Shown piece by piece: positions 6,626-37,364 of a stretch of DNA of 57,322 nt (the stretch's first letter is position 1; each line of letters begins with the position of its first letter). The stretch spans positions 1 through 57,322 of the forward strand of contig JACPMJ010000007.1 of NCBI GenBank assembly GCA_016186045.1, given 5' to 3'. The notes under the pieces were generated by a model, which was not told where the DNA came from, searched no databases, and saw only the letters and a program-made list of their open reading frames with translations. Position numbers and translations under genes: made by a program. This stretch comes from Candidatus Uhrbacteria bacterium (GTDB taxonomy: Bacteria > Patescibacteriota > Patescibacteriia > JACQRZ01).

Positions 6626-7075
6626 CTAAAAAAGTTCCGTTCCTTCATCGTCCGCGCGCGCGCCCTGATAAATGCCGCCGGTATCCACCACCAGCAGGAG
6701 CTCTGACATGCGCTGGTCTGAAATCCGCTGATGTTTGAGTTCCTCGATTTTTTCTTTTTTCTCTGACGTTTCTTCTTCCATACGCGCAATATTGAATTCC
6801 TTTCTCCATACCATGAGTGGCGGATGCATGACTGCGCGCGTCACATTCAGGATAAAAAAATGAAACGCCTGGCCATTTATCTTCAAAAAACCAAGAATGC
6901 CGCCCACAAGCGCAAGTACGATGGCGATGGGAATAAATAGCGCAAGCGGAAACATTTTATACGTTACAAATATCAGTAGGGCATCCACAAACACAATGGC
7001 AAATTGCCGAACCGTAATAGGTCCCATGATTTTGTCTTCGTTTTCTATAAATTGTGGGACTGTCACTTGTTCCAT
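6626..7075 (-). CDS. PrgI family protein
   Basis: 149 aa; VPQFIENEDKIMGPITVRQFAIVFVDALLIFVTYKMF plus two TM helices, adjacent to VirB4 as in PrgI-type T4SS loci. Confidence 0.85.
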   Translation of the reverse strand: MEQVTVPQFIENEDKIMGPITVRQFAIVFVDALLIFVTYKMFPLALFIPIAIVLALVGGILGFLKINGQAFHFFILNVTRAVMHPPLMVWRKEFNIARMEEETSEKKEKIEELKHQRISDQRMSELLLVVDTGGIYQGARADDEGTELF

Positions 7076-7084: not shown

Positions 7085-10000
7085 TTACATTCGTATCCGT
7101 TCGTTGAGCTCAAGTACGGCATCAAATTCCTGCTCCGTAAGGTATGGCTTTTCTTCAGCCTTCAGCTGGTCAATGACGCTTGTGATGCTCTTGCCCTTTA
7201 TAAGCGCCGTCTGGCCAATCTGCACATAGAGCATATTGATCTCATTCTCGCGCCATGCGGCAATTGCCGTGAGTTTTTTGGTGAATGATTCGCGCTCCAT
7301 CGCCTGAATCTTATCATAGATACGACTGGCGGCGTTCAACGGATCTTCAGACAGCCGGCGAAAATCCTTCAGTGTCAAAATCTTCAATTCTTCTATGGTA
7401 TCCACTAAGCGCGGCGACCGCCTCACATCTGAAAAAGAAACTTTTCCCGGCTGCGGGGGAGCGGATTTCACGCTGACCGGAATATGAAAAATATTTGAAA
7501 ATAGTCCACCGCTCGCAGGCTGTCCGTGCGGCATAACACCGGTAGACAACTCTTGGAGCGTCTGCGGCGCAGATATGGATTCTGGTTCTGGCTTTTGCGT
7601 CTGCGCAGGTATCAAAAGCGATACTGAATCTGTTTTCTCCTGCACAGGTTGTTCAATATTTTTCACTTGTTCTTCTTCCTGCTTTTTTTGCTGTTCTTCC
7701 ACTACCTTCCAAGTACCTTCTTCTGCGCGCGCTTTCTGTGTTTGCTCGGCCTCGCGTTTCTGTTCTTCTTCTGCTTTTCGAGCTTTTTCTTTTTCCGCCT
7801 GCTCTCGCGCGGCTTGCTCGGCTTTTTGCTTTTTTTGCTGTTCTTCCATAGCCTTCCGCGCAATTTCCTCTTCTTTTTTCTTCTCTTCCTCTCGCTTTCT
7901 CTGTTCTTCTTCAGCATATTTTCTTGCGCGCTGTTCTTCGTCATCCTTTTGAACGGATATCTGCGCCGCTTGAGTTGACGGGGCGGTCAAATACGTTCCC
8001 TTCTGTTTTTCAACGATCATGGGTACGCCGTCAACCTCCTCAATAGCAAGCTCAGGTAATCCGGCATGTTGGATATGCGGCATATCCACTGCGCCAAAAA
8101 ATGAATGCGGCTGTTTATGACTCACAACCGCTCCCTCAGTTCCGGCTTCTTTTGCAGTTTGTTGAATGGACAGCTTTTTTGCAAAAAATGTCGGCACCGC
8201 TTTCAATGCTTTCCGAAAAGGGAGTGTGTCTAATTTCAAAGGGATTGCAAAATATGTTTGTTTCACAACAAGTGGTGGCAGAGCCATGTGTACCTTTTCC
8301 TCCAAAAACCCCGGAGAAACGTGCACGGTTTCTTTTTCTTTCTGTGCAAAAGTCATCGGAGGCGGTGCAAATTCTTTTGGCGAGACATATTGGGGAGGTA
8401 TAAGCGACGGTTTTGGCGGATGAGGCGGCACTGGCTTTTTCATGGAAATAGGTATGTTCCTCATGGCGCTCATCTCCGGAAACTGGGGAAGAACAAGTGG
8501 CAGAAAAGGCAGTTTAGGAACGCCATGGGAGGCAACGGGTCGCGATCTGCCAAATTTTTTTGGCTGGGGAGTGAACTCGCGCCGTACCAATTCCTTAATC
8601 TCTTGGACGTCTTTTTTAATAGAAGTTGATGGAGCGCTTACCTCTTTGATATTTATCACGCCCTGTGATATAAGATCCGTAGCCATATTTGCATTCCGCA
8701 CAATCGCATGTGCTGTTTTCACATCCAATCCAAATCCACCGGTCTTTACCGACTCGCTCAGCCGCTCTCGTATTTCAATGGCGGTGCGAATATTTCTTAG
8801 ACGCGTCACGACCGCCTTTTGCAAGCGCGCATGGAACGCCGGATCAGTAATCACAATACCACTCATAGAAAGTACTTCATGCGCAAGTTCCTCATAATTT
8901 TTTCCTGAAAAAGGACTCGGCCGGAGCTGTTCTTCTATCATGATATCTGCTGCGGATATTTCATGGATTGTAGGTGGAGTTTGAAAAAATGCATCACGCG
9001 CCTCCACTACAAGAGGCGCCAAGGAGTGGAGAGACTGGGACGGAGCAGGTAATTCCGGCACTGCCAATATTGATTCCGGCAAAGAAAATGAAGATGCATA
9101 TTCCTCCCTGTCCAAAGGCAAAGGAGCGGCGCTCGCGGCACCAGCTCCCTCTTGTTCGCGTGCAGTGTCTTGCGCCTGCACATCCTGTCTAAAAGGCGAC
9201 AGCGGCGCTGAAGGTGGACGATCATCCGGTGAGGGACTTTCTTCTTCATCATACGAACTCCCTTCTTCGCCATAGGGAATGATTACCCACTGCTCCTGCG
9301 GAATATGCGCAAGACTTTCCGGAAATAGCCGCGCCGTCCGATATACCTCCAAAATATGGCGGAGTATCTCCCTGTCCTGCTCCTGTAAGCGACGGGCGTT
9401 TTTGTTTTGCGCCAGATATTGCGCAATGTGCAAAGTTGAAGGATCACCGTCTGAAAAACTGATAAAATCCTTCAGCCATTCAACAGTATATGAAGAGTAT
9501 GTTTTTCCATCTCGCTCAATATGCGCTCCCTCACCAATGGTCTGCTTATTTTCATAGAGCGCACGAAGAAATTCCGCAGAATAGCCTTTGACATTCAAGA
9601 AAAGATCCACGGCAAGATCGTTAAATGCACGCTTGCCTGTGTCATCTGCGCTTAGATAATCTATAAAATTCTTTTCAATAATATAATGAAACTGCATGCG
9701 CCTTTGATCAAGAGGCAACGCATGAATGTTCCTGATATGCTCTCTCATCTGCTCATTTGCAAATCTCATAAGCGCTTTCAGCAGTATGCTCTTTCCTATA
9801 TATACCCCTTCATCCACACCAAATGCCTGTAATATCTCTCTACTATCCATAAAATAATGCGGAAACGGCGCGACAAACTCGCCCATGATGTCCTGCGCAA
9901 GTTCTTCTGTTTTTTCCGCAGAAAATCCAAAAATCTTTTTGACATGCCGCGGAATGTCTCCCAAGACGACGTCTTTGAGTAATACATCCATAACAATATC

Positions 10001-10147
10001 TTCAAGCATATCCCTCTCTTTTTGCGCCAAATCAAATTTCTCGCTTATCCGTTCAAAGAGCTCGGCATATTCTTCGGATTCCAAGCATGCCACCACATAT
10101 GGCGGAAGCGTTTGGATAAGCCGATTTATTTTATTCATGTCCAGCAT
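7085..10147 (-). CDS. Large Pro-rich/coiled-coil protein of the T4SS-like locus, unknown function
   Basis: 1020-aa ORF; Pro-rich centre and a long KAEEEQKREAEQ-type charged coiled coil; sits between the VirB6-like and PrgI genes. Confidence 0.75.
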   Translation of the reverse strand: MLDMNKINRLIQTLPPYVVACLESEEYAELFERISEKFDLAQKERDMLEDIVMDVLLKDVVLGDIPRHVKKIFGFSAEKTEELAQDIMGEFVAPFPHYFMDSREILQAFGVDEGVYIGKSILLKALMRFANEQMREHIRNIHALPLDQRRMQFHYIIEKNFIDYLSADDTGKRAFNDLAVDLFLNVKGYSAEFLRALYENKQTIGEGAHIERDGKTYSSYTVEWLKDFISFSDGDPSTLHIAQYLAQNKNARRLQEQDREILRHILEVYRTARLFPESLAHIPQEQWVIIPYGEEGSSYDEEESPSPDDRPPSAPLSPFRQDVQAQDTAREQEGAGAASAAPLPLDREEYASSFSLPESILAVPELPAPSQSLHSLAPLVVEARDAFFQTPPTIHEISAADIMIEEQLRPSPFSGKNYEELAHEVLSMSGIVITDPAFHARLQKAVVTRLRNIRTAIEIRERLSESVKTGGFGLDVKTAHAIVRNANMATDLISQGVINIKEVSAPSTSIKKDVQEIKELVRREFTPQPKKFGRSRPVASHGVPKLPFLPLVLPQFPEMSAMRNIPISMKKPVPPHPPKPSLIPPQYVSPKEFAPPPMTFAQKEKETVHVSPGFLEEKVHMALPPLVVKQTYFAIPLKLDTLPFRKALKAVPTFFAKKLSIQQTAKEAGTEGAVVSHKQPHSFFGAVDMPHIQHAGLPELAIEEVDGVPMIVEKQKGTYLTAPSTQAAQISVQKDDEEQRARKYAEEEQRKREEEKKKEEEIARKAMEEQQKKQKAEQAAREQAEKEKARKAEEEQKREAEQTQKARAEEGTWKVVEEQQKKQEEEQVKNIEQPVQEKTDSVSLLIPAQTQKPEPESISAPQTLQELSTGVMPHGQPASGGLFSNIFHIPVSVKSAPPQPGKVSFSDVRRSPRLVDTIEELKILTLKDFRRLSEDPLNAASRIYDKIQAMERESFTKKLTAIAAWRENEINMLYVQIGQTALIKGKSITSVIDQLKAEEKPYLTEQEFDAVLELNERIRM

Positions 10148-10153: not shown

Positions 10154-13100
10154 TTATGATTTCTTTGAATTTTCTTTTTTGTTTATCAAATTACCTTGAG
10201 CTTGGGTAAGAGATCCTAATTGCTCAATTTTTTCTCCTTCACTCAACGCGGTATTCTTCAAAATTCCCGCTTGTTGTTGGTTGAGGGTTTTTAATTTCTT
10301 GTCAGTATTATCGCTCACACCGGATGGTTTCGCGTCTGCCGTTTGTTTTGATTCTCCTTTTGGCGAGTCTGCTGAAGATTTTACGGATGCACCTCCGCCG
10401 GATGATCCGCCAACACTGCCACCTCCGCCACCCCTGCCTGATGGCCCACTACTCACAGCTCGAGCGCCACCGGACGTCTCCTCGCCTCCGCCGGAAAGCC
10501 CACCCAATTCTCGCGCGATTTTTTGTCTTTCTCTGTCAATGGCTCTGGTCTCCTCTGTCCGCTTGTGCGGATCTTGGATAGCTGTCGCCTCCTTGTATAC
10601 TCTATCAAGATCACTCATTTGAGATTGAAGCTCTTGCGTACGCGCTTCTTTTTCTACTTGAGCGTTTTGCGCCTGTCGTTCCGGTCGCCGCTGTGCCTCG
10701 CGCTCCTGAAGCTGTTTCTCAAGACCTTGTATTTCTTTTTGAACATCTTGGAGGCTTCTTCCCCCTGCGTTTTTCTCGCCACGCATCATCGCATCCTTCA
10801 TACTGTTCAGCCGAGAAATCCGTACACCCAACGGCAAATTTTTCGTATCCTCACCCTGCGGAGGAGGCTGTTGGCCCGTATCTTGCATCGTTACTTCTAT
10901 GGTTTCTTTTTGTGCACCTTTGTCACCGGTACCAAACCTGCGATCATCAGATAATTTCTGTTTTTCTTCTTGGATACGCGCTTTCAAATCTTCTATGGTA
11001 TGCCCTTTTGCTTTTTCCTGATCAGTCAAATTCTTTGCGGTTGCTCCCAATGTTACCTTGCGAAGCTCATATCCTTCAGCATTCGGATCCAAACCAAGAA
11101 GCGCCGCCTCCGCCTGTTTGCGCCCTTTTTGAATTCGTTTCTGGTCTTCCTGTTCCTTTGTAAGGTCATTTTCCATTCGTGAAATTTTTCCTGCGTGCGA
11201 TGGCTGGGCAGGCTGAGGCGATAGTTTTGCGGCATGTGCCTCCATTTCCTTGCCAATTTCTTCTTTCACTTCCTTTTCGTTCTTTTCCTTCGCCGGTGGT
11301 GACTCTGGTTTTTGCGCAACTCCACCTCCCATGGGAGTAAGTGTCCTAAAGGGCTTTTGATCAGTCGGCCTCCCTCCGCCAAGCGTCTCCTCCGCCATAC
11401 TCTTGAGATCCTCAAGCTCACTCTTTTCTTTTACCGGCGGTGGCTCTGGTTTTTTAAATAATTCATGCAGTCCTTTTGACTTATCCCACTCCTCCTTTGC
11501 GCCTTTAGCTAGAGAGGTATCTCCTATGGCTTCCCCCGCTTTTTTCGCAAGAACTCCTATATCAGTTGCTTTGTTAATCTCTCCAAATTTTTTCTTTCCT
11601 CCTTCTATCGCTTTGTCAGCTTTGACTGCGGCGGTTCCTACTCCCACCATCACACGGTTTCCAGTAGCCTGTGCTCCTCTTGATAGAGCTCCCTTAGCAG
11701 CAGAAAATGCTTCTCCCGGATTTTTGTATACTGATCCAACCTTTGTTGCCGTAGCCTGAGCTCCGGCTGTAAATTTGCCTCCCACGGTCCGTGCGGCTCC
11801 AAGAGCGGCTTGCATTCCTGTGCTCGCCTTCTCTTTTGCGGCTCCACCTAATTTTCCTAAACCCTCCGCGCCAGCCTTGCCAAGCGCGGGAACATCTGTC
11901 TTTGCCATGGTACCAGCCAGCCGCACAGCGCCCTTTCCGGCTGACTTCAATGCTCCAATACCCGCCCGCCCAGCGGCTCCGGCAATTCCCGGAACTGCTT
12001 TCGCACTGCCTTTTGCAAAACTGCCAATCGCGGCTCCTGCCTTTCCTGCGCCTGTTGCGCCGGCTCGCGCAGCAGCTGCTATACCTGCAGGAGCCGACTT
12101 CGCGAGCTGGACCGCCCCGGCGCCAACCTTTTTCGCGCCTGCTGCACCGGCTTTTGCTCCGGCACCAGCAAGCTTAAATGGCATTGCCGCCGTGCCTGCT
12201 CCTATACTTTTCATTTTATTCATAGCACCTGCGGCTATGCCACCACCTACACTTGAGAGCTCCTGTGCCGCAACAAGGCTTGCCAATAGCATGACAATAC
12301 CCAGGATAAACCCCGCAATGCCCGGCGCAGTGCCGGCTATGGACGTTCCCACAGAAAGCGCTCCTGATTTAGGATCTTTGGAATCTGGCCACTCCTGGTC
12401 CCCAAGCTCCCGATGAATCTGGACATCTGACGCGTCTTTTTTACCCTCAGCCGCATTTTGCGTCACCGCCAGAGAAATCCAAAGAAAAAATGCCAATACC
12501 GGACCCAAAATAACATAATTTGCAAAATTCTTCCACCACCTTCCTGAAAGCTGTTGCGCCATATCTATGGGAACCGCGGAAAGAAAAAACGCAAACGGCG
12601 AAAGCGTCACCAAAAACCAAATCGCAACAATGCGGATAATAAGCTGGATTGCGATAACCGCGAGCACTACCAACGCAATAAAAGAATAAATAAGCCCGAA
12701 AATCAAAGAGATAAAAATAGTGTTATAATTAACGTCACTACCTTCGGTCATCTTCAAGACATTTTGCACGCCAAGCATCGCCATGAAATTTCCCGGGCCT
12801 GCGGCAGAAAACGCACCTACGAACGTCATCATCACCACTTGCGCGAAATCTATGAGTAATCCACAGATGGTACGAGAAAAATTGATGAGAATCGCCATGA
12901 GAATAAGCTTGGGAAGTGTCCGTGAATAATGGTATTTTTCCTGCTGTAAAATGGTGCCTGCCGCAATAGCCAAAAGCACAAGCACAAAAAACATATTGCA
13001 GATATCCCGCACAATACCCCAGCCTTTTGCAACGGCAGTGGAAAAAATAAAGTCATTATAGCTGGCAACTGCTATAATGATATATATGAGAATGGTAATG

Positions 13101-13300
13101 CACTTGCCGACCAATCCAAGAATCAAATTGACCAAATATCCAAATCCTTGTGCGAGTTTTTCTCCAACAGTGCCGATAGCAGTACCCTGGGCATACGCAT
13201 GTTCGGCAAATCCAAATACGCCAATGCCGACTCCCATACAAATGAGCAATAAAAAAAGCACTGCTCTTTTCTTGCGCGCAATTCGTTCACATAGTGCCAT
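10154..13300 (-). CDS. VirB6/TrbL-like multi-pass membrane protein with Ala/Gly-rich and charged C-terminal regions
   Basis: 1048-aa ORF; signal peptide followed by several TM helices (FGYLVNLILGLVGKCITILIYIIIAVASYNDFIF...), then a low-complexity C terminus; T4SS context. Confidence 0.8.
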   Translation of the reverse strand: MALCERIARKKRAVLFLLLICMGVGIGVFGFAEHAYAQGTAIGTVGEKLAQGFGYLVNLILGLVGKCITILIYIIIAVASYNDFIFSTAVAKGWGIVRDICNMFFVLVLLAIAAGTILQQEKYHYSRTLPKLILMAILINFSRTICGLLIDFAQVVMMTFVGAFSAAGPGNFMAMLGVQNVLKMTEGSDVNYNTIFISLIFGLIYSFIALVVLAVIAIQLIIRIVAIWFLVTLSPFAFFLSAVPIDMAQQLSGRWWKNFANYVILGPVLAFFLWISLAVTQNAAEGKKDASDVQIHRELGDQEWPDSKDPKSGALSVGTSIAGTAPGIAGFILGIVMLLASLVAAQELSSVGGGIAAGAMNKMKSIGAGTAAMPFKLAGAGAKAGAAGAKKVGAGAVQLAKSAPAGIAAAARAGATGAGKAGAAIGSFAKGSAKAVPGIAGAAGRAGIGALKSAGKGAVRLAGTMAKTDVPALGKAGAEGLGKLGGAAKEKASTGMQAALGAARTVGGKFTAGAQATATKVGSVYKNPGEAFSAAKGALSRGAQATGNRVMVGVGTAAVKADKAIEGGKKKFGEINKATDIGVLAKKAGEAIGDTSLAKGAKEEWDKSKGLHELFKKPEPPPVKEKSELEDLKSMAEETLGGGRPTDQKPFRTLTPMGGGVAQKPESPPAKEKNEKEVKEEIGKEMEAHAAKLSPQPAQPSHAGKISRMENDLTKEQEDQKRIQKGRKQAEAALLGLDPNAEGYELRKVTLGATAKNLTDQEKAKGHTIEDLKARIQEEKQKLSDDRRFGTGDKGAQKETIEVTMQDTGQQPPPQGEDTKNLPLGVRISRLNSMKDAMMRGEKNAGGRSLQDVQKEIQGLEKQLQEREAQRRPERQAQNAQVEKEARTQELQSQMSDLDRVYKEATAIQDPHKRTEETRAIDRERQKIARELGGLSGGGEETSGGARAVSSGPSGRGGGGGSVGGSSGGGASVKSSADSPKGESKQTADAKPSGVSDNTDKKLKTLNQQQAGILKNTALSEGEKIEQLGSLTQAQGNLINKKENSKKS

Positions 13301-21228: not shown

Positions 21229-21298
21229 AAGCGTAAATTATGGATTACACTCCTTATTTTACACATATTCTTTTTCTTGTCAACCGCGTAATAAAAAA

Positions 21299-22623: not shown

Positions 22624-22696
22624 GATGGGGTACCTTTCCTTTCTTTTCTGATGATTGTCATTCCAGACTCGATCTGGAATCCAGTAATTTATAGCC

Positions 22697-22767: not shown

Positions 22768-22794
22768 GCAACACTCCCTCAATACACACTTCAT

Positions 22795-23605: not shown

Positions 23606-23683
23606 ATATTTTTCTCCTTCTATCATATCATGAACACCTATCATCGGCAACCATGTCAAAATAATAAACCACGTAATAAAAAA

Positions 23684-23707
23684 GACAGAAAAACGCTGTT
23701 TTCTGTC
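23684..23707 (-). terminator. Hairpin A, copy f
   Basis: gacagaaaaacgctgttttctgtc. Confidence 0.8.
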
Positions 23708-23835
23708 TGGACTGGTGTCATCCCGAGTCCCTCGGGAATACTCGGGATAAACTCCGTGGAGGGATCCCGAAGCTATACTGTTTTAGCGTCGGGATTGCCA
23801 CGGTCGCTATCGCTTCCTCGCAATGACAGAAACAA

Positions 23836-23895
23836 GGACTAACTTATAAAAAGAATCCATCACACAAAAAGAGAGGATGTCAAGTGGACACCCTC
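23836..23895 (-). promoter_or_regulatory. Hairpin B, copy 6, plus conserved segment
   Basis: Minus strand: GAGGGTGTCCACTTGACATCCTCTCTTTTTGTGTGATGGATTC; TTGACA-17-ATGGAT. Confidence 0.6.
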
Positions 23896-23898
23896 TTC

Positions 23899-25475: not shown

Positions 25476-28400
25476 CTAATGCAATGGAGTATCGCTACTG
25501 CTAAACTCTCCGGGCTGTTTTGTATCTATGGGAAGCTTAAGCGTCTTGCATATCTTTGTCTTCCGACTCCAGTTGTCCATGGCCTCTATGCACACCCTAT
25601 TGCCATCAATCTTACTGTTTCTAAACGTATAACTGTTGAGGGCGAATTTAGGGTTTTTACAAGGAGTCTCCGACGGCTCCGACGACGTACATGGCGGCTG
25701 ATCCTTGTACCCATCTCCTTCATCTTTTACAGGAAGTATGGGAAAGACATTATACGAATCTTCGGGATTCACATCGCTTGAGGATAATGTCACATACCGC
25801 AAAGGAAGCTGATCATTGTCCACGTCAACATAAAATTCTATCTTTACGATCGGCGCGCTCGCGGCTCCGATCTTTATCCAGCTGAAGCTGTCTGCGGCTC
25901 CTTCTTTGTTGTAGATGCCCGGATAGCGTACCGGCCAAGCGGCGTCATTAAACCAGCGCGGCGCTGTTTTTCCCTCTGTTGCTCTGAACCTGCCGCTTGA
26001 GCCAGGCACGCCGCTTGATGACGCATCTTCATATACCTTCGCAAACGGGATGGGATGAGACGCGTAATCAAAATCATCCGCGTTAAAGTTGGATACTGTT
26101 GTGCCGGGAGCGAGAGTATTCAAAATACTCTTATCAAAATCTGAAAGAAAGAGGTTATATGTGGCATTCGTGTCATCCCACAACGGCGGCGGAGTAATCT
26201 TGCTATTATACACATCCAATGAAATCCTCCAGCCATTTGTGGCATCTCCTATGAATTTCGGTTGGCCTGAATACGGACTATTGTCGCTTGTTCGCGCCTC
26301 TAAAACATCTGTAAAATCTTTTATGGGGCTGTTAGCTGTTTTCAGCGCGACAAGAATCGCTTCTCGTTCCCTATCCGGACGGGTGTTTATGACAGCATTA
26401 TAGTTTGTATTACTGCCACTCGTATATTCTGACCACTTACTCCAATCCCAGTTAAATTTCTTCGTATCAAGCTTAAAATCTGCAACCGGAGCGCTTGGGA
26501 GCGAAAAATCAGATACGGGATCAGATGTGATTTCCGCGTTTTTGTTATACAACTTTGGTCTACTCTTGTAATATTGCTCCAATGTCTGCCTTTCACCGGT
26601 CTCATCCTCTGAATGATTTTTCGTTCCATTTGGATCTCTAGCTGCCGCCCGTTCATTGATGGTAAAGCCAAACCGATCTGCACCACTGCCCTTTGAGCCG
26701 TACCACCGCCATTGCGATATGGTGCGTTTCAGGATGATGGGCCCGGTGGACGTGGCACCTGCTTGCATCGTGGTAAGCTGTTTTCCCTTGGCTCCGCCCC
26801 AGTCAGGTTTCTCTACGTTTTTTACGATTGAATAAAACGGCACTGATTTTTTTTCTTGTGCCACGCGCACCACGCGCGCGCAATACACATCCCGATAGGT
26901 CGCCTTTGCGGTGATGTTATATCCGCCTTTTCCCAAAAGTCTGCCTCTTTGGGGGATAGGTATTGACACGCCTTGATTAGTCGCTTCCTCATTTTCTATT
27001 TCTGATTTTGGCGTCAAATTGCAAGAGGGTCCACCCATGTTCGCTCCATTATATTCAAGTACTTCCGTATAGTTTTTCGCGCAGTTGTTTACAAATCTAC
27101 CTTCTGTAGCATCCCAATGCCATTCTGTCTCCACGGTGCCTTTACGCGTGATGGTGGATGGGGGAATAACATCTCCGCCATAGGAATTATACCCAATCGT
27201 GTCCTCTCTCTCTTGGGGATCAGCGTATGCGGATGTGCCATCGGCACGATATCCTCCGGCAGTAGTACTGTATACTTCAACGAGTCTTCCCGTTATCTTG
27301 CCATTATTCGGATCTATTCCTAGGCCTACTAAGCCCTGAGGAGTACCCCCTTTTGTAGAAAAATCTCCTTGATAAAACTCTACCCTTGCGATTGGCACTA
27401 TTTCCCATTTACCGGTGGTTGCATTTTTAACAATTTTCTTTTCCACAGTAGTCACTCTGTCCTTTCTCATCACCGTCTCTTCCGCTTGCATCTTTGTATC
27501 TGCACACGGGTTGGAGGTGCAGGTTTCCACCTTATATCCCGTTTGACTAGAACCAGTTGCCCAGTCGCTCTGGTCTATATCGCCATCTTTATTACTATAC
27601 TCTCTATCGCCATACGACCCCGGTCCTCCGGTTCGAACTTTATCTACTCGATGCGTATTTTTTTCTCCGCAGGTAACCGTGCTTCGTGTTTTACACTCAT
27701 TCCATGTTTGCCCATGACACTCAACAGTTCTTTCACAAACTCTACTGGATCCCACCCAATAATCTTGAAAATGGTAGAAGTCTTGACACGTTCTTTCGGC
27801 ATTAGTTGTGGCATCATCTGGACACTTATACTCTCCTCCTGAGGAATTCTCTCCTGGATTTCCATCACACTCGTCCTTTGGGGGGTCGTTCCCACCAATT
27901 TGACCACCTGTTTTACCAGTACCGCATGCTCCTTCCTCTGCTTTATGAGTAAAAGTATTGGGACCATAGAAGTCCGCAACCGCGGCGTCCCATCCTCCTA
28001 CACAAGGATAAGAGTCTTTGCACTCATAAGGCGTTGTCGTAAAAACCCTTCTCCATGGCTGTTCTTGAGGTATATTAGAAGTACGCCAGTCTTCACTTAT
28101 ACCCGGAACTCCACTCATAGCAGTCACCGGGCTCGGATCGTATGTTGTGACTTTCTTTTTTGCAGGCAATTCCACATACCTTTGCGTACCATTCGCGCAT
28201 TTACCGTCTCCATCATTAGTTGGTCCGGCTCCTCCAAATGCTTTATCCTTAGCCTCATCACACGTCTCCACAATGCGCGCTATGACATCTGTTGTTGGGG
28301 CGAGTACGTTTCTTGCTGGGTAGTCGCTTGGATGCGTTGGGACTCCATCCTTTGTTGTAAGATCTCCCGTGTATGTTTTAGGGTATCCTGAAACATTTGT

Positions 28401-31400
28401 TATAGTTACGAGCCCCTCTGCCACTGATTTTGTCGTCCCCCCTGCATTTTCATTGATCGTAAATTCCGTCACGCGATCCACTCGCATCACAGACTCCCTA
28501 TATGGCACGGCGTTTGACGTAATCACTCGCCCGATACCGGGAATTTCTGCAACAGCAGGCACAGCCACTGTAATAGGGTTTTGGGTAGTATTCTTCAGCA
28601 CCTCCTCATGTTCGCGCACACTAAACTGCGCGCAAAAATAAATGTCATCATTTGAAAAATCCTCTGATAGCCCGGAACCACCAATGGCCGCAGTAGCACT
28701 TGCAGAACTTTCTAAGGCGGCCTGTGTTTCTGTGCGATCAGACGGATACCAATTCAGGCACGCGCCCTTAAAACCGAAATTGGAAATATCACTGCGTGCG
28801 GCAACGTTCAATCCCGGAATTCCAAGAACACCAAAATACGTATCCGAAAACTTGGGATACGGCTCAAGACAGTACCCTTCTATGCCCTGATATTCATCTC
28901 CCTTTTTATTCTCATACTTGCAAGAATCTACTGAAAACTTCCTGTTTTCAAGCGTATCGGCAGAAGATGCCTTGGGGTGATATCGCACATCTGGGGCATC
29001 ACTGCGCGGCCGCACTCGGCAGGAATTAAATACTTCAATCACCGGATCCGCGGGCGACATCACAAGATTCAGACGACCCGGTATTACGGTGGATTTCTGC
29101 GGCCATCCGAACAATGACGTATGCCCGGATACGCCAGCCAAGCGCGTACTCCACCCTCCAAGAAACTGAAAATCAGGCCGTGCCATGCCGGTAAGAGAGG
29201 CAAACGGGATAGGAGTCTTGAGCGCGGCATTATGCGCTTCCTGAGTAGTTTCAGCTGTGGCTGAAGACGTAAATAATGAAGGTTCCAGCGTATTGGTCTT
29301 TTCCGGCTGGTTTATGGTGTTTGAGAATAGGGGATTTGCGCATGTGCCATCTTCTGCGCGCATATTGCATGGCACACGGCTTGTACAGAATACTTTTTGA
29401 GTGGTAGGATCGGTATAATAGAACGCACAATCCAGCCATGTCTTACAGGTGCGATCTAAGCGCACTTTGAGAAGCGTATTCGCGTCATTGGTTGACGTGC
29501 TATTTCCCGGATCTGTCAGATTTATGGGGATGCCGCGCCTGCCGCCGTTTGTATAGTCAGCATAATATGCGGAAGAACCATATTTCAGCCCTTCTACGTT
29601 CGCATCATTAAAAAGTATACACCCTCCATCCACATCCATTTTTCCATTGCACTCTCCTTTGTTTTCCGCATTCGCAAGATAGTAGTACTCGCGTTGGCAA
29701 GATACGCTTGGCGTGCCTCTGCCGTAATCATCCCGCAATGTTTCATCTGTCTTACATTCCGGATCTATAATCTTTCTACAGGTCTTCTGAGACGAGGGGC
29801 AAATCTTGGGTATGTTATTTTCCAGTATGGCATCATCATCTTCCGTGCATTCTTTCTCTGTGCACTCACCATTGCCAAAATTCTTACAGTCCGCATCCGC
29901 GGTGCACGCAACCTCAACCGTAGAGCCTGCGCATGTTTTGTAATACCATACGCCTTTTATCTTGAGTTCGGCAATCTGTGCATTCTTTTGCTCTGAGGTG
30001 AGTGTGGAATCATTTTTTATTTTATTTATATCATTGTCTGTGGGCGTGCGCCATCTACAAAGCTTTTTCCCGGGATTCTTAAAAAAGACATCTTTTTGTC
30101 CGGCAAGTAAAAACGCCTTGCATGAGACGGCATCCAAAGCGCATATTCCTTGCGCCAAATCCTGCAATCTCGCCTCCTCTGGAGTTATTTTCAGATATCG
30201 CGTGATCCAGTCTTCGGTTTTTGTGTCTATACTCAAGCTCCGAGTACTCACGGCGTCACTGATGTCCAAAGTCGGCTTGCCATACGCGGTACAGCCCGCA
30301 TCAGCCGCTTGGCAGGATTTTGTCTGGTCTTGTATGAGATACATGGATGCGGCACTCTGCGCATATGCTTTGCATCCAACCATCTCGTTCGGGCATAGCC
30401 GTTCCACATCTCGGAACACCGCTTGCGCACCCGCGCGATCCGCATACAGCTTACAGCCGATCTGATCTTTTTTTGCGGTGGTCTTGTCTGCCGGATTTGC
30501 CACGCACTCATCCGGCAGGACCCATGAGTCGTCCACGGCATATATCACACCCGATGCCTGCTTGACAATAATGGAGTCAAGTAAAACAGTGGAAAAAGCA
30601 TCAGTAAGATTCTTTGGAGTGACCGTGATGCGCACTCCGGAACCCCCCTGAACCACGGGGTGGACATTGGCTAATTTTGCAAAGGAGAATGTCAGATACC
30701 GCCATGTGTTTGCGGGCAACGTGGAGCTGGCGGAAGAGATCGTCACCGTCCGGCCGTCTGTATCTTCAAAACCCAAAATATCCATCTTCACTTTTGCCTC
30801 TTCTGTGCCAGAAACCTTTATGCTCAAGCCCGCGAGATAGGAGACATCACCCAGCAGAAGCAATCCGTTTTTTTCAAATGTGACAGGCCCGGCAACGGGT
30901 GTAACAGTGACTTTATTCTTCATCTCAAGACTGTGGTTTCCCAAGCTCTCCGACTCATTGGACGCGGTCGCGGGAAGAGAAGTTTCACCTGCGAATGCTG
31001 TCCAGCCGTCTGCGGTATTGTCTTCAAAATTACTATAGTCCACCATGACCACATTGCCCGCGGTAGGATCTCGAAACTCCCTGCATCGAGCAGACGATGA
31101 CGGACACGTCTGGCTCAAAGAAGGAGTTATTTTGTAGATGTTTCCAGCAGTTCCGTCCAACGTGCGACGGTATTCAGTGCAGTCGTCAGTAAGGTATATG
31201 AGCTTGTCCATCTGATAATATTCCGCCTCAAAACCAGCAGTATCCTTTCTGTTTACATACAATTGGCGGCAGTTTGGCGTGGTGATGTTTGGATTGGTAA
31301 ATTGATTATAATAATATGTCGCGTCATCGCCGTTATTTTTTCCGTCTCCGGTGCAGTCACACTGCTCAGTCCCAAAACACGCGGGCGCGCCACTGCTATC

Positions 31401-34400
31401 CGCCTGCACGGTGAATACATCCAAGCGGTATCCGCCCAGATTTGACCCCATGGGGCTATAAAACACCGTTACTTTGTTTGGATCTGTGGGCTTTTTTTCG
31501 CACCATCTGATTTCTTTGAAATAGTCGCGTTTTTCCGCTCCAGCGCCTGTGAGAACGTTTGTGAATTCATCACATCCCGCGTCTGACACTAAACATTGTC
31601 GGACCGTGGGCGATGTGGGAATAAACGCGGCGTTTGTGCTGTCTTGCGCCAGGCCAAGCTGGGATTGAATGCGCGTTTTTTGGATACTGTAGTCGGTCAG
31701 GCCTGCGCACGCCTCCTTGCATCCTGTTTTGGGGCCGGTGGCGGCGATAGGAAACCCTCCCACCTCCTGCGGCGTATACAGCTCGCATCCCACGTACTCC
31801 TCCGCGCAGTGTAAAGTAAACGGCTTGCACTCCTCCCTGCGATACGATGGCTTTGTAAATGGTTTGCCGGTAGTGGCATCATTGACCGTATTGTTCGCGT
31901 CATCGCATTGGTAATAATTTGGCGCGATTTTTGTGTATGTTTCCTTTTCTTTCACCCCCTGATAATCACTGAAAAACGATCCTTGCTCTATCTGTGCGCC
32001 ATAGACATATGTATCACCCGCCTGGGTATACAGATATACACGAAGTTCATCGAGAGGGCTATAATCTTTGAGTGTTGTTTTGGTAAGACTACAACGCTTC
32101 CACGTAGGACCTATGGCACACTTCTGGACTCCTTGATCTGCATCAGATCCAAGCGCAAGAGTAATGACGGAATCTTCTGAGGATTTTGCCCAGAGAGAAA
32201 ATGTAAATGTTTTTCCCGACACGCTATCCAATCCATGGCTTTTTTTATGTAAATGCACACGGTATTCTCCCCCACCACCGCCATTTTCTTTTCGGGTAAT
32301 CTTACCAACTGGCTCTTTTATACCATTTGGAGAAATTTCATTTGTTACACGTTGCCAGGTAATCGTGGGTTGATTTTCTCCATATATACACAAACTCCAG
32401 CTCTCCTCTGTACCCCCGCACCAGCCATTCTTATTTCCCATGATATCTGACTGAGGAGCAAAATTTTTAAACGTAGCGCCTTTTGGTATGACTCCCCTGC
32501 ATCCTTCCGCTTGCGCAGTGCATTCCGCGGCTTTTGGAGTGAAATACGCCTTGTTTGCGGAATCCCAGTCTTTTACTATAGAGTTTTTGGAGGTTCCGGT
32601 GGTCCTATTCGCGCCCATAAAACGTGTCGTACTATACCATGCGCATCCGGCAGTGTTTTCATTGCATGCATCGTGCTTGGGTATGCTGTCTTTCAGATAG
32701 TAGCTGACCCCTTTCGTACTCTTGTCTATAAATTCATCACAGCTTGCGTACAAGGGTTTGCACTGTGTGCCATTGAACCGCCAAATTTTTTTCTCCTCCA
32801 GACAATAGCCATACATCTTGGGAGCGCACTTCCCTTGGGCGCCGTCTTCCAGACAGGATTGCTCATCCAAACAGACCTCTGAACGGACCACGGTTCGCTC
32901 CTCATCATCCATACCGCATGTGGAGGCGGTTAAACAGACATTCTTTTCATCGTCGGATGGTTCGGCCGTCGCATTGATAGCAGATCCGTCAAGTTTTTTT
33001 GTCAGACAGCTTTTGTCGCAACATACGACGCCATCTCCGTTGGTATCGTTTTTACATATGGTCTGCTCCGTATCTTTTGTCTTTCCCTGCACCGGGCCAT
33101 ATCCCTTCACGGCGCAGTACAAGGAGGGCAGTTTCAATACCCAGTTCGGATCCACAAGCCGGAAAAACTTGCTGGATGGATCGTCAAACGCGTCTACCAT
33201 GTTTTGCAAGGTACAGCTTTTTTCGGATCCGCAGGCGTCATCATGATCTCTGATATACAACGCGGCAAATTCCCAGGAAACCGGCAGGACCCGGTATTTC
33301 CGCAAGACAACCAATGAATTATACGGATAATTCGTCTCCCAGCTGGGCTGGATGGCTTCTTCCATGGATCGCGGTTTACTTTGACTGTCAAACCCAAACA
33401 CACCATTTGGATTGAGCCCCGCATTCTCTCCTTTTTTAAACGCATCTATGGCCTCTGTCACGGTCATTTTCTGCTGGACGGCGTTTGCAAACGCGTCTCC
33501 CAGCACGCACGCGTTTGCGCTGGTATCGCATGATGATGAGCGAAGCTGGGAAAGCACATCCATGACTCCGGCATCTATGCCACTTACCCGCGTAAGCGTG
33601 GCTGTGTACTGACGCACTGCGGCGATGCCACCGCTGGACGGCCCCGCGTCGGGATTGTATACGGCGTCCATGACCGCCGCCTGAGCAGGATTTATCGCCT
33701 GAAGCGGAGCGTTCGCAATGGCCGTAACCGCGGCTTGGGCAAGATCCACTCTTTCTTCCGCTTGCCTCACCTCCTGTATCACCCGCGTAACAACGGCTTG
33801 CGCTTGCTCTACTTCTTTTTTTGCTTCTTCTGAGGGAGGAATAGCTCTCGCTCCTTCAAGTACGGCATTTGCGTTATCAAGCTTTTCTTGTGCTAAATCA
33901 AGTTTTGCTTTTTCAGCCAATAGCTTCGCCTTTGCGGCGTTGTCTTTCGCGCTTTTTTCCAACGTGTCCGCGAGTTTATTGAACTCATTGTCTTTTGACG
34001 CCGCCTGCCATTGCTTAATATTTCTCACTAATCCTTGCTTCAGGTAATTCATGCCCTTGCTCAACAGAGAGTCCACAAACGTGCCTACAATATCCGCGGC
34101 GTCTGCCACAAATTTTCCTGTCACGCCTTTTACCGGATCGGAGCTATTTTCCTGGCCCTTTTCTAGTCCACCTTTCAGCTGAGAACGCACAATATCTCCG
34201 GGCGTTTTGATATTTCCCGCCTCGTCCTCCTCCGGCTTAAACGTGAGTTTATCTATGAACTCAGCCATGGTCGCGGCGGCAACTTGTTTTTCATGCGCGT
34301 CAAAAAACGCGGTGTTCGCATTGAATGCCACGCCCACATCGCTGGATTCGGTGTCAAAAAGATCTCCAAGTGTTTTCCAGTTTGCCAAGGATTTCGGATC

Positions 34401-35204
34401 AAATGTCTTAAACTGATCATACAAGTTCCCCCAGTTTTTTGCCAGATCGTTCACATTACAGACGGGCTCTACATCCGGATCTTCCCCCAATGACCCGATG
34501 CCCAGGGAAATTTTGAAAGAGATGTTCGCGTTGGGGTTACAGAGAAATCCCAAAACAGACGCCACCTCTTCCGATGTGCCGCCCTCCTGTCCGCGACGAT
34601 CCGCTTCTGCGCGCTTTGCTTCATTTTTATTCATCTGATTCACATCACCTCGGATATTCTTCGCCTTGGCCTCAGCCGCGTCTGCTTTTTGACCATAATC
34701 TGCCGAGGCCTTTTCAAGACCGTATTGCTTAGCGCTATTTGAATCAGCTCTATAATCTGATCCTTCTTTATCAAGTTTAGCCGCATTTTTTGTCATGTCT
34801 TCCTTCTTTGATCTATTAAAACCTTTTTCAAATCCCTTTGCCATGCCTTCCAAGCCGAAACTCAAAAATTTTCCGCCAATATCTTTCATCTCCTTGTCCC
34901 ACGCCTTGGTGCTCCAGAACGGCTCCTGGCCTTTTTTTCCTGTGGCAAATTCTTGCAGTGCCGTCTCCACCATCTTATGCGCGAGACTTTTTGCCAAACT
35001 CTTTAATGTCTTATATACCGCCGTCTCAAGGCCCACAACAATCGCCTCACCGATCCATTTGCCAATGTTTCCCAAGCTGAAAATTTCCGCATTCGGTAAT
35101 TGCGCCCGCACCGGCGCTGGCCGAAACGCCATATACACGCCCGGCATCAGCATGACAGCGACAAGAAATACGATTAGTGTTTTTTTTGCATGGGAAAGGC
35201 GCAT
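25476..35204 (-). CDS. Giant (3242 aa) secreted Cys-rich protein with carbohydrate-binding-like modules
   Basis: Single open ORF; signal peptide MRLSHAKKTLIVFLVAVMLMPGVYMAFRPAPVRAQ; repeated C-x5-GC-x2-[YF] motifs; jelly-roll-like TFTFSLWAKSSEDSVITLALG...VYLYTQAGDTYVYGAQIEQG. Confidence 0.85.
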   Translation of the reverse strand: MRLSHAKKTLIVFLVAVMLMPGVYMAFRPAPVRAQLPNAEIFSLGNIGKWIGEAIVVGLETAVYKTLKSLAKSLAHKMVETALQEFATGKKGQEPFWSTKAWDKEMKDIGGKFLSFGLEGMAKGFEKGFNRSKKEDMTKNAAKLDKEGSDYRADSNSAKQYGLEKASADYGQKADAAEAKAKNIRGDVNQMNKNEAKRAEADRRGQEGGTSEEVASVLGFLCNPNANISFKISLGIGSLGEDPDVEPVCNVNDLAKNWGNLYDQFKTFDPKSLANWKTLGDLFDTESSDVGVAFNANTAFFDAHEKQVAAATMAEFIDKLTFKPEEDEAGNIKTPGDIVRSQLKGGLEKGQENSSDPVKGVTGKFVADAADIVGTFVDSLLSKGMNYLKQGLVRNIKQWQAASKDNEFNKLADTLEKSAKDNAAKAKLLAEKAKLDLAQEKLDNANAVLEGARAIPPSEEAKKEVEQAQAVVTRVIQEVRQAEERVDLAQAAVTAIANAPLQAINPAQAAVMDAVYNPDAGPSSGGIAAVRQYTATLTRVSGIDAGVMDVLSQLRSSSCDTSANACVLGDAFANAVQQKMTVTEAIDAFKKGENAGLNPNGVFGFDSQSKPRSMEEAIQPSWETNYPYNSLVVLRKYRVLPVSWEFAALYIRDHDDACGSEKSCTLQNMVDAFDDPSSKFFRLVDPNWVLKLPSLYCAVKGYGPVQGKTKDTEQTICKNDTNGDGVVCCDKSCLTKKLDGSAINATAEPSDDEKNVCLTASTCGMDDEERTVVRSEVCLDEQSCLEDGAQGKCAPKMYGYCLEEKKIWRFNGTQCKPLYASCDEFIDKSTKGVSYYLKDSIPKHDACNENTAGCAWYSTTRFMGANRTTGTSKNSIVKDWDSANKAYFTPKAAECTAQAEGCRGVIPKGATFKNFAPQSDIMGNKNGWCGGTEESWSLCIYGENQPTITWQRVTNEISPNGIKEPVGKITRKENGGGGGEYRVHLHKKSHGLDSVSGKTFTFSLWAKSSEDSVITLALGSDADQGVQKCAIGPTWKRCSLTKTTLKDYSPLDELRVYLYTQAGDTYVYGAQIEQGSFFSDYQGVKEKETYTKIAPNYYQCDDANNTVNDATTGKPFTKPSYRREECKPFTLHCAEEYVGCELYTPQEVGGFPIAATGPKTGCKEACAGLTDYSIQKTRIQSQLGLAQDSTNAAFIPTSPTVRQCLVSDAGCDEFTNVLTGAGAEKRDYFKEIRWCEKKPTDPNKVTVFYSPMGSNLGGYRLDVFTVQADSSGAPACFGTEQCDCTGDGKNNGDDATYYYNQFTNPNITTPNCRQLYVNRKDTAGFEAEYYQMDKLIYLTDDCTEYRRTLDGTAGNIYKITPSLSQTCPSSSARCREFRDPTAGNVVMVDYSNFEDNTADGWTAFAGETSLPATASNESESLGNHSLEMKNKVTVTPVAGPVTFEKNGLLLLGDVSYLAGLSIKVSGTEEAKVKMDILGFEDTDGRTVTISSASSTLPANTWRYLTFSFAKLANVHPVVQGGSGVRITVTPKNLTDAFSTVLLDSIIVKQASGVIYAVDDSWVLPDECVANPADKTTAKKDQIGCKLYADRAGAQAVFRDVERLCPNEMVGCKAYAQSAASMYLIQDQTKSCQAADAGCTAYGKPTLDISDAVSTRSLSIDTKTEDWITRYLKITPEEARLQDLAQGICALDAVSCKAFLLAGQKDVFFKNPGKKLCRWRTPTDNDINKIKNDSTLTSEQKNAQIAELKIKGVWYYKTCAGSTVEVACTADADCKNFGNGECTEKECTEDDDAILENNIPKICPSSQKTCRKIIDPECKTDETLRDDYGRGTPSVSCQREYYYLANAENKGECNGKMDVDGGCILFNDANVEGLKYGSSAYYADYTNGGRRGIPINLTDPGNSTSTNDANTLLKVRLDRTCKTWLDCAFYYTDPTTQKVFCTSRVPCNMRAEDGTCANPLFSNTINQPEKTNTLEPSLFTSSATAETTQEAHNAALKTPIPFASLTGMARPDFQFLGGWSTRLAGVSGHTSLFGWPQKSTVIPGRLNLVMSPADPVIEVFNSCRVRPRSDAPDVRYHPKASSADTLENRKFSVDSCKYENKKGDEYQGIEGYCLEPYPKFSDTYFGVLGIPGLNVAARSDISNFGFKGACLNWYPSDRTETQAALESSASATAAIGGSGLSEDFSNDDIYFCAQFSVREHEEVLKNTTQNPITVAVPAVAEIPGIGRVITSNAVPYRESVMRVDRVTEFTINENAGGTTKSVAEGLVTITNVSGYPKTYTGDLTTKDGVPTHPSDYPARNVLAPTTDVIARIVETCDEAKDKAFGGAGPTNDGDGKCANGTQRYVELPAKKKVTTYDPSPVTAMSGVPGISEDWRTSNIPQEQPWRRVFTTTPYECKDSYPCVGGWDAAVADFYGPNTFTHKAEEGACGTGKTGGQIGGNDPPKDECDGNPGENSSGGEYKCPDDATTNAERTCQDFYHFQDYWVGSSRVCERTVECHGQTWNECKTRSTVTCGEKNTHRVDKVRTGGPGSYGDREYSNKDGDIDQSDWATGSSQTGYKVETCTSNPCADTKMQAEETVMRKDRVTTVEKKIVKNATTGKWEIVPIARVEFYQGDFSTKGGTPQGLVGLGIDPNNGKITGRLVEVYSTTAGGYRADGTSAYADPQEREDTIGYNSYGGDVIPPSTITRKGTVETEWHWDATEGRFVNNCAKNYTEVLEYNGANMGGPSCNLTPKSEIENEEATNQGVSIPIPQRGRLLGKGGYNITAKATYRDVYCARVVRVAQEKKSVPFYSIVKNVEKPDWGGAKGKQLTTMQAGATSTGPIILKRTISQWRWYGSKGSGADRFGFTINERAAARDPNGTKNHSEDETGERQTLEQYYKSRPKLYNKNAEITSDPVSDFSLPSAPVADFKLDTKKFNWDWSKWSEYTSGSNTNYNAVINTRPDREREAILVALKTANSPIKDFTDVLEARTSDNSPYSGQPKFIGDATNGWRISLDVYNSKITPPPLWDDTNATYNLFLSDFDKSILNTLAPGTTVSNFNADDFDYASHPIPFAKVYEDASSSGVPGSSGRFRATEGKTAPRWFNDAAWPVRYPGIYNKEGAADSFSWIKIGAASAPIVKIEFYVDVDNDQLPLRYVTLSSSDVNPEDSYNVFPILPVKDEGDGYKDQPPCTSSEPSETPCKNPKFALNSYTFRNSKIDGNRVCIEAMDNWSRKTKICKTLKLPIDTKQPGEFSSSDTPLH

Positions 35205-35207: not shown

Positions 35208-36158
35208 TTATTGTTTCACCTCTTGATATGCTTGTTTTGCCAATGTTTTGAGTGTCGCGTCATCTATCCTTTTGAGGTCTTCTTCGGAGATCCTGCCGGT
35301 TTTACGTAAAAGGTCACGGAGTTGGTCGGGACTCATGGCATTTGGATCAAACTGCTCTTGCGCAGTAAACGGCTGGGAGGGCGCCGGCTGGACAGCCTGC
35401 GGAATAGAGGGAGTGGACTGATCCCTCGCCTCCTGCTCCTTGATGACCTTTTCGTACGTGGATTCAAATACCTGGCCGTATATATTTTTGAGAGCTGTGT
35501 CATCTACGTTTTTCAAATCTTTTTCAGACATGCCCTGACGCACCAGAAACGCGCGGATCTCCTGCGGAGACAAATTCCGCAAATCCTCAATGGTCATGGG
35601 CGTGTCAAAGCCGGGAATCGTAACCGCAGGCAGGGGAAGCTGGGCTTGTCCGCCAAGCACCGCCTGGCCTCCCAATAACCCGCCGCTCAACTTGGGAATG
35701 TTTTCCGTGCTCGTAGATGCGGAAGTGTTGAAAAGCTCGCTCTGGATATTTCCGCAGGCTCGCTTTGATTCATCGCACAGCGGATCATGGCCGGTGCGCA
35801 GTTCCGTCTTGTCATCATAGCCATCGCCATCACTATCATCCAGAAACGCGCTGGTGCGGTAAATGGTAATTTCATCAAAATCATTCAGGCCGTCCTTGTC
35901 CGTGTCGGCGTTTTTCAATACTTCGTCTGTTTTTTCTTTTTGTTCGTCTTTTGAAAGTTGTTGTACGGGAAGTGGCTTTGATCCGTCCTTGCGCGCAAAT
36001 GGATATTGTATATTTTTTGTGATTCCCTGCAAACCGAATATTGAAATGCCCGCGAATAATAATATAAACAAACCAACGAGCGGACGTTGATCCTGTTTTT
36101 TGGAACTGTGCGTTTCTTGCGCACCGCCCTCGCCTTCTGAAAAATGCTGTTCTTCCAT
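35208..36158 (-). CDS. TM-anchored protein with TSP3/EF-hand-like calcium-binding repeats
   Basis: TM LVGLFILLFAGISIFGL; DTDKDGLNDFDE, DSDGDGYDDKTELRTGHDPL; ends 4 bp before the giant gene start. Confidence 0.8.
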   Translation of the reverse strand: MEEQHFSEGEGGAQETHSSKKQDQRPLVGLFILLFAGISIFGLQGITKNIQYPFARKDGSKPLPVQQLSKDEQKEKTDEVLKNADTDKDGLNDFDEITIYRTSAFLDDSDGDGYDDKTELRTGHDPLCDESKRACGNIQSELFNTSASTSTENIPKLSGGLLGGQAVLGGQAQLPLPAVTIPGFDTPMTIEDLRNLSPQEIRAFLVRQGMSEKDLKNVDDTALKNIYGQVFESTYEKVIKEQEARDQSTPSIPQAVQPAPSQPFTAQEQFDPNAMSPDQLRDLLRKTGRISEEDLKRIDDATLKTLAKQAYQEVKQ

Positions 36159-36225: not shown

Positions 36226-37269
36226 TCATTCCCGGAACACAGTCTGGGATGACAATAGAAGTTTTGTAACCTCCCGCCACTGACTCACGGAAATTTCCTG
36301 CGCTCGCGCTTTTTCTTGTACATCCGCTTTCTGAAAAGCGCTCAACACATCTGTAAGCGGGATACGAAGTTTTTTTGAGATGCTCTGCGCGCACTGTTTT
36401 CGTTTCGCGGAAAATCCCGCGCGAACGATGGAGAAAAAGAACTTGTCATTCCGAACGGTCAGTGAGGAATCCCGTCGTTCTTTATCAACATCCTTAAACT
36501 TTTGCATATCACTCTCATTTCCTCCTCTGTCATTCCCGCCATCGAGCGGGAATCCAGTATTTGACGTTTTCCTTATAGCTCTGGATCCCCGATCAGAGCC
36601 TGTCCTCAACTTGATTGGGGATCGGGGATGACAATTCTTATACTGTTTAGAATCTTTCACCACCAGCCGCACCACCGCGCTGTCCACGTTTGGCTTGGGA
36701 AAAAAAGAATTTCTCGACACGGGAAATAGGATGCGCGCCTCCGCGTAATACTGCACAGATACCGCGAGTAGACTCATCTGTGGCGGTGATGCGGCGATGC
36801 GCTGTGCGACTTCTTTCTGCATAAGCAGTATCAATTCTTTGGGCCGTGGCGTATTTTCCAAAAACTTTCGTATGATCTGCGAGGTGATATGATACGGAAT
36901 ATTCGCAATCACGCGATATGCGCCGTCTTTTTTACCAAATATCGTATTTGGGATCGCGCGGATGTCGTCTTTCAGAAGTGTGATATTGTCATTCTCGTCT
37001 CCCCCTTTGTCATTCCCGCGAAAGCGGGAATCCAGTATCCAAAAAAGATGCGCATCTATCTCCACGGCAACCACTTTTTTCGCGCGAACAGCAAGCTCTG
37101 CCGTGAGCTCCCCGCTTCCGCTCCCGATCTCCACAATCGTATCCGTTTTTTTTATACCCGCCGCCTCAACTATTTTTCGTATGATATTTGTATCTATCAA
37201 AAAATTTTGTCCGCGCCGGTGCAGAGGCCGGACTCCTGATTCACGCAAAAATTGCATGGGGGTAGGCAT
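36226..37269 (-). CDS. rsmA: 16S rRNA dimethyladenosine transferase with two in-frame repeat-derived insertions
   Basis: HRRGQNFLIDTNIIRKIV, VEIGSGSGELTAELA, NIPYHITSQIIRKFL, FFPKPNVDSAVVRLV, FSAKRKQ. Start set at MPTPMQFL. Confidence 0.9.
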   Translation of the reverse strand: MPTPMQFLRESGVRPLHRRGQNFLIDTNIIRKIVEAAGIKKTDTIVEIGSGSGELTAELAVRAKKVVAVEIDAHLFWILDSRFRGNDKGGDENDNITLLKDDIRAIPNTIFGKKDGAYRVIANIPYHITSQIIRKFLENTPRPKELILLMQKEVAQRIAASPPQMSLLAVSVQYYAEARILFPVSRNSFFPKPNVDSAVVRLVVKDSKQYKNCHPRSPIKLRTGSDRGSRAIRKTSNTGFPLDGGNDRGGNESDMQKFKDVDKERRDSSLTVRNDKFFFSIVRAGFSAKRKQCAQSISKKLRIPLTDVLSAFQKADVQEKARAQEISVSQWREVTKLLLSSQTVFRE

Positions 37270-37308
37270 ATATTGACGTACTATCTTTATTTGTGTTATA
37301 CTCCCCTG

Positions 37309-37364
37309 TGTAGGAGTAATCCTACTAATCACGCGGTCCCGCTCAAAGCGGGATTTTCGCTTTT
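37309..37364 (+). ncRNA. Candidate small RNA
   Basis: TTGACG (37273) -18- TATACT (37297), then gtaggagtaatcctac and a terminator tcccgctcaaagcgggattttcgctttt. Confidence 0.45.

Follow-up and report, generated by a model that had tools for sequence, protein, structure and literature searches.

A giant cysteine-rich exported protein of a patescibacterial type IV secretion operon, probably a class-specific surface subunit for host contact

The window analysed here, a 57,322-nucleotide stretch of a Candidatus Uhrbacteria contig, carries a cysteine-rich exported protein of 3242 aa (P0001, hereafter the giant; Table 1) for which we favour, with some reserve, a role as a class-specific surface subunit of a type IV secretion system (T4SS), built of a stalk and a variable tail and probably serving as a host-contact adhesin or fibre. 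Little is known of the way in which ultra-small Patescibacteria recognise their hosts and keep hold of them, and descriptions of their T4SSs include no adhesin; a near-universal, class-specific surface protein encoded in the operon would offer a concrete, single-gene target for host contact. Surface proteins associated with T4SSs are already known as a type, and it is the domains of the giant that would be new. Within the open-access PMC literature searched, the giant is apparently an undescribed, class-wide core surface protein of the T4SS operon.

Table 1. Positions in the window of the giant, its segments and the neighbouring operon genes
Feature	Position	Strand	Evidence
Giant secreted Cys-rich protein P0001, 3242 aa	25476..35204	minus	ORF and translation; class-wide homologues
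Putative signal peptide, aa 1-34, predicted cleavage after ...PVRA	35103..35204	minus	Giant's only hydrophobic segment
Helical N-terminal region, aa 35-544	33573..35102	minus	AlphaFold2 model, mostly low to medium confidence
Most conserved core domain, aa 545-697 (RKYRVxPVxWExAA ... DPNWVLK)	33114..33572	minus	Alignment A1
Putative Cys-stapled beta region, aa 778-2149, most of 46 conserved Cys columns	28758..32873	minus	Conservation and model
C-x6-C module C815, CKPLYASCDEF	32730..32762	minus	HMM cross-detection and motif count
C-x6-C module C847	32634..32666	minus	HMM cross-detection and motif count
C-x6-C module C895	32493..32522	minus	HMM cross-detection and motif count
First jelly-roll (CBM-like), about aa 905-1090	31935..32492	minus	NF048003 at 949-1081; PDB profile
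C-x6-C module C1133	31776..31808	minus	HMM cross-detection and motif count
C-x6-C module C1204, strongest cross-detection	31563..31595	minus	HMM cross-detection and motif count
C-x6-C module C1367	31074..31106	minus	HMM cross-detection and motif count
Second jelly-roll (CBM_4_9/CBM22-like), about aa 1391-1550	30555..31034	minus	PF02018; PDB profile
C-x6-C module C1604	30363..30395	minus	HMM cross-detection and motif count
C-x6-C module C1631	30282..30314	minus	HMM cross-detection and motif count
C-x6-C module C1688	30111..30143	minus	HMM cross-detection and motif count
C-x6-C module C1802	29769..29801	minus	HMM cross-detection and motif count
Variable C-terminal tail, aa 2160-3242	25479..28727	minus	Length variation; distances not tracking VirB4
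TSP3-repeat protein, one TM segment, adjoins giant in nearly all examined loci	35208..36158	minus	Profile matches, gene order
KsgA, conserved neighbour upstream	36226..37332	minus	Profile match, gene order
VirB6-like polytopic membrane protein, 8 predicted TM	10154..13300	minus	Topology and position; no Pfam match
Coiled-coil-like cytoplasmic operon protein	7085..10147	minus	Profile search, topology, gene order
PrgI/VirB3-like protein, 2 TM	6626..7075	minus	Topology and position; named by comparison with published operon
VirB4 N-terminal-domain protein (TrsD-like)	5882..6586	minus	Topology, gene order
VirB4 ATPase, CD1110 family	3983..5869	minus	NF045971, E 7e-105; PF19044

Export and domain anatomy

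A genuine open reading frame on the minus strand encodes the giant, whose hydrophobic N-terminus agrees with the secreted protein of 3242 residues named in the preliminary description of this DNA; the protein has 94 cysteines, and the genome measures 0.93 Mb. The single hydrophobic segment is followed by an A-x-A-type site, the N-terminus is hydrophobic in 68 of the 69 homologues of the giant, and Ala34 (giant numbering) is kept in 83% of them. Counting against the adhesin reading, none of the 69 has an LPxTG sorting signal, just three have a possible lipobox, and no clear second transmembrane segment was seen in any; no obvious anchor is present at the C-terminal end of the giant.

The N-terminal domain matches nothing in Pfam, NCBIfam or the PDB. 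An AlphaFold2 model of aa 36-725 (mean pLDDT 70) is confident in its core at aa 545-695; most blocks of the core domain (aa 545-697) reach a pLDDT of about 90-98, and this domain has no fold match in the PDB. Cys222 and Cys249 in the N-terminal region are conserved in 96-97% of the 69 homologues. The Cys region that follows was modelled from 66 sequences over aa 765-1960 (mean pLDDT 81.5, pTM 0.56; secondary structure numbered with an offset of 764) and consists almost wholly of beta structure.

Two jelly-roll domains resembling carbohydrate-binding modules (CBMs) had been proposed for the giant, and Pfam, NCBIfam and PDB profile matches bear them out. The first matches CBM chains (E 9e-7) and the second matches 4xup (E 7e-15), to which Foldseek also aligns the CBM_4_9-like domain with a TM-score, by target, of 0.68. 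PF02018 (CBM_4_9) is recognised in 27 of 35 giant relatives, with the whole-protein score of the window's own giant falling slightly under the Pfam cut-off. Structure prediction by segment likewise returned a confident all-beta Cys region and jelly-rolls with CBM folds, and it is these jelly-rolls alone, and nowhere else in the giant, that solved structures match. An NCBIfam identity as a phage head spike fiber was set aside, as the match covers only the first jelly-roll, and so were long Foldseek matches to Cry toxins, reelin, ELAPOR1 and phage tail proteins, which are low-TM, multi-domain alignments driven by the jelly-rolls, with an rmsd mostly above 25 A. A second partial match in the same genome (L046:7079-11185, on G000:C15) is a 1368-aa frame running off the contig end; all it has in common with the giant is the first jelly-roll region (47% identity), and it seems to be another, fibre-like protein.

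The two embedded domains share both fold and sequence family with the CBM_4_9, CBM22 and CBM16 jelly-rolls, but in the giant they are set into a Cys-module stalk without a detected catalytic domain. This bears on the possibility that the giant is a secreted effector, an enzyme carrier or a T4SS substrate acting on the host once released, with its CBMs for targeting. Such a role would suit a protein with a signal peptide, no recognisable anchor and CBM domains of the sort typical of secreted enzymes; we nevertheless consider it improbable, given that scans of members found no catalytic family in the core, the Cys region or the tail, that a Sec signal would bypass the T4SS, and that near-universal conservation of the scaffold is unusual for effectors.

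A degenerate cysteine module

The preliminary description also listed ten strings as copies of a repeated, evenly spaced cysteine module. All ten are present, at 29.4-32.7 kb, and the motif is far more frequent than in shuffled sequences: C-x6-C-x2-[FY] occurs 8 times in aa 601-2700 against 0.25 expected (none of 20,000 shuffles reaches 8), and shuffles that keep every Cys in place give an expectation of 0.84, none of 5,000 reaching 8. The narrower C-x5-GC-x2-[FY] occurs 5 times against 0.02 expected. HMM profiles were made for each of ten module sites (C815, C847, C895, C1133, C1204, C1367, C1604, C1631, C1688 and C1802), and each was tested on the other sites against Cys-fixed shuffled decoys. 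Because these ten sites cross-detect one another far above the decoys (for example, 18.2 vs 0.0 bits from C1133 to C1204), C-x6-C is a real degenerate repeat, more than a spacing of cysteines.

The original list nonetheless needs amending. It overlooked C815, and it included CKTWLDCAFYY at C1920, which is no copy: it has the spacing C-x5-C, it scores no higher than decoys with any module profile, and the model places it within a long strand, which sets it apart from the other sites. Nor are the modules evenly spaced, successive starts being 27 to 238 residues apart because the jelly-rolls and other inserts sit between them. At nine of the ten sites in the model, a three-residue helical turn begins two residues past the first Cys and a strand begins at the second; C847 is the sole site without the helical turn. 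No known disulfide-repeat family claims the modules in Pfam, NCBIfam or, by sequence or by fold, in the PDB, and relative to these three collections both the C-x6-C module and the N-terminal core would be new protein families.

Across the 69 homologues, whose sequence identity is about 24-45%, 46 Cys columns are at least 90% conserved. Throughout the class the Cys sites correspond in position as orthologues and do not form a variable array, a point absent from the preliminary description. The same genome encodes a VKOR beside a DsbA-like thioredoxin (G000:C4:13066-14116, elsewhere in the genome), and a DsbA-like thioredoxin also lies within the window at 49397-50164. These genes make oxidative folding of the giant plausible, and together with Cys conservation and the turn geometry of the model they underlie the predicted Cys pairing by which the giant would be disulfide-stapled.

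A variable C-terminal tail

Beyond C2149 the homologues differ greatly in length, from 206 to 2078 aa, and the tail of some relatives holds CBM_4_9, PA14 or Kelch-type domains. Pairwise distances in the core track those of VirB4 (r 0.60, 0/500 permutations), whereas those in the tail do not clearly do so (r 0.21, 43/500 permutations). Length also varies within the Cys region of one relative, an open frame of at least 4039 aa (L031, G001:C32) with 1609 residues between the anchors C1367 and C1584 against about 200 in others; this is the largest value found and is consistent with a 2275-aa segment.

Distribution of the giant

The giant was matched in all 11 genomes of the family and in 259 of 287 sampled genomes of the class, a sample covering about 90 families. 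The core profile (A1) matched 34 of 382 genomes phylum-wide, all 34 of the same class, with no match in the sampled genomes of other classes; VirB4 of the CD1110 family was found in 53 of 59 genomes phylum-wide. As judged by these profile searches, the giant is a near-universal, class-specific core component, which the preliminary description had not proposed.

The missing giants in the genomes examined are mostly contig breaks. Twenty unmatched class genomes were listed. Every one has a match to the VirB4 family, which in 17 exceeds the cut-off, and each assembly consists of about 20 contigs or more. Upstream of VirB4 in 16 unmatched genomes, nearly all contigs end before or inside the giant's expected place. 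Two genomes (G126 and G154) have a giant fragment at that place though unmatched, and another (G028) has a fragment with TSP3 and KsgA at the end of a separate contig, while at two loci (L167 and L170) a few kilobases of other sequence lie upstream of VirB4 and no giant is accounted for. A phage or plasmid origin was rejected, as searches of 50,697 phage and 72,556 plasmid records found no match to the giant.

The T4SS operon and its neighbourhood

The position of the giant beside T4SS genes, already pointed out for the window, extends to its homologues: VirB6 lies downstream in 19 relatives that represent many families. On contigs of sufficient length, the order is (MFS)-KsgA-TSP3-GIANT-VirB6-coiled-coil protein-PrgI-TrsD-like-VirB4. 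The gap between the giant and VirB6 is less than 2 kb in most of the 19, about 7 kb in G019 and G260, and 12 kb in the window; giant fragments at two further loci (L166 and L174) directly adjoin VirB6. Counted against the T4SS-subunit reading are four relatives (G024, G095, G122 and G211) in which TSP3 adjoins the giant and VirB6 was not detected within about 15-19 kb; in the remaining relatives the contig or retrieved stretch stops before the VirB6 position. Membership of the giant in a conserved chromosomal T4SS operon is well supported by these comparisons of gene order.

In the window, about 12 kb of additional genes (13462-25134) separate the giant from VirB6; in relatives they are mostly absent from this place. 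They include several short secreted or lipoprotein-like genes, two of which (16455-17597 and 21535-22794) are near-identical at the N-terminus, three DUF4143/AAA_14 ATPases and a small nucleotidyltransferase-like/HEPN-like pair. Given the 7 kb found in G019 and G260, the interval may be an insertion hotspot.

In other classes, different exported proteins occupy the slot upstream of VirB6. One locus (L123) reads TSP3-1959 aa-283 aa-VirB6, and exported proteins of 557 and 687 aa lie upstream of VirB6 in two others (L116:5533-7206 and L124:11842-13905, respectively). The 1959-aa protein (L123:11944-17823) has 27 Cys, and an exported protein of 1204 aa in a further T4SS neighbourhood (L107:7197-10811) has 58. 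The giant showed no homology to these four proteins by hhalign, with single sequences only compared. The presence of unrelated exported proteins in this position suggests a class-specific slot.

Perhaps the giant is a general surface or envelope protein that merely neighbours the T4SS genes and KsgA. The four relatives with the giant and TSP3 and without VirB6 nearby would fit this idea, as would the frequency of KsgA and other housekeeping genes near virB4 (PMC12102498). We give it little credence, however, for the order of giant and VirB6 is kept across many families, usually less than 2 kb apart, and the same slot in other classes again holds a different exported protein, as in L123.

A probable role in host contact

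We propose that the chromosomal, probably non-conjugative T4SS of the class has the giant as a dedicated surface subunit. Sec would export the protein, which would fold oxidatively once outside the cytoplasm, and the helical N-terminus and the conserved core (aa 35-697) would probably lie at the envelope, next to the VirB6/VirB3/VirB4 translocon. Over aa 778-2149, about 40 conserved Cys in short C-x6-C loops would staple an all-beta stalk bearing the two CBM jelly-rolls, and the variable tail would display lineage-specific binding domains. So built, the giant would probably act as the host-contact adhesin or fibre of the T4SS, keeping the epibiont on host glycans while the machine acts.

An adhesin or host-contact fibre was also the earlier guess, and it is still the best supported one, because of the conserved CBMs, the CBM, PA14 and Kelch domains in the tails of relatives, and placement with a machine on which epibiosis depends in Saccharibacteria, where it is essential; anchoring, glycan binding and the adhesin function itself are predictions. 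Neither of the two outcomes that the preliminary description named as refuting its reading was obtained, neither an assignment of the modules to a known disulfide-repeat family nor a lack of homologues near other T4SS loci. Against the adhesin reading it counts that CBM-type folds also occur in non-adhesins.

TraN, the mating-pair stabilisation protein of F-type T4SSs, is likewise Cys-rich, secreted and T4SS-encoded, but the giant is several times longer and goes with a different type of T4SS; membership of the TraN family was rejected, since PF06986 was unmatched in all members scanned (Pfam; A4, A5 and A6 members). PrgB, the adhesin of pCF10, is Cys-poor. Like PrgB-type adhesins, the giant is large, exported and encoded with an MPF_FATA-like T4SS, a comparison of how the proteins would work; it differs from them in being apparently Cys-stapled and in lacking LPxTG, and we rejected a PrgB-type identity because no homologue has this signal and no polymer-adhesin or other PrgB family is matched in Pfam or NCBIfam. 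Surface adhesins often serve contact in Gram-positive conjugation (PMC12857230).

Patescibacterial T4SSs derive from MPF_FATA, the conjugation systems of monoderms, and are mostly without relaxase (Quinonero-Coronel et al. 2025, PMC12102498). The system described there has the same VirB4, PrgI/VirB3, TrsD and VirB6 genes, is chromosomal and has KsgA nearby; what the present analysis adds is the giant, a partner gene of class-wide occurrence. No PrgB-like adhesins were detected in that survey, and a giant Cys-rich protein is absent from its text (PMC12102498). The giant fits the place of this missing adhesin: it is exported and co-operonic, its folds include glycan-binding ones, and it combines a beta stalk rich in Cys with a variable tip. 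The Saccharibacterium S. epibionticum requires T4SS genes for its epibiotic growth (PMC10633639); its T4SS is of the same non-conjugative kind and also belongs to an epibiont, but to one of a different class, and the giant's core profile has no match outside the class of the window.

It is tempting to speculate further, although we hold this to be doubtful, that the giant represents a T4SS subunit of a new kind: an external fibre, stapled by disulfides and able to bind glycans, that takes the place of the conjugative adhesin and also of the outer channel parts that the system lacks. Every patescibacterial class would then have put an unrelated exported protein of its own between KsgA/TSP3 and VirB6, and this slot would be a determinant of host range in epibiosis.

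The main rival to the host-contact reading is a structural one, in which the giant is an extracellular channel scaffold of the T4SS that replaces VirB7/9/10 and VirB8 and spans the wall or S-layer, while type IV pili and T4SS pilins recognise the host and the CBMs grip the cell's own polysaccharide. This is a real, if rather unlikely, alternative. The Cys scaffold and N-terminal core are extremely conserved, with core distances that track VirB4; the giant directly adjoins VirB6; VirB8/9/10 are rare or absent in patescibacterial T4SSs (PMC12102498); and all 12 class genomes tested carry T4SS_pilin genes, whose products could serve in recognition. A tail that varies strongly and in relatives bears accessory glycan-binding domains is, by contrast, more typical of a recognition protein, and the giant has no homology to any channel subunit. 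The roles of conduit and adhesin may both apply. T4SS_pilin (PF18895) domains also occur inside other giant frames of about 2,100-3,450 aa, away from the giant studied here (G072:C1:501430, G083:C1:568590, G016:C1:79954, G156:C1:73380, G176:C1:986209 and G124:C1:498423), and the open frame bearing PF18895 in G072 is 14,266 aa long.
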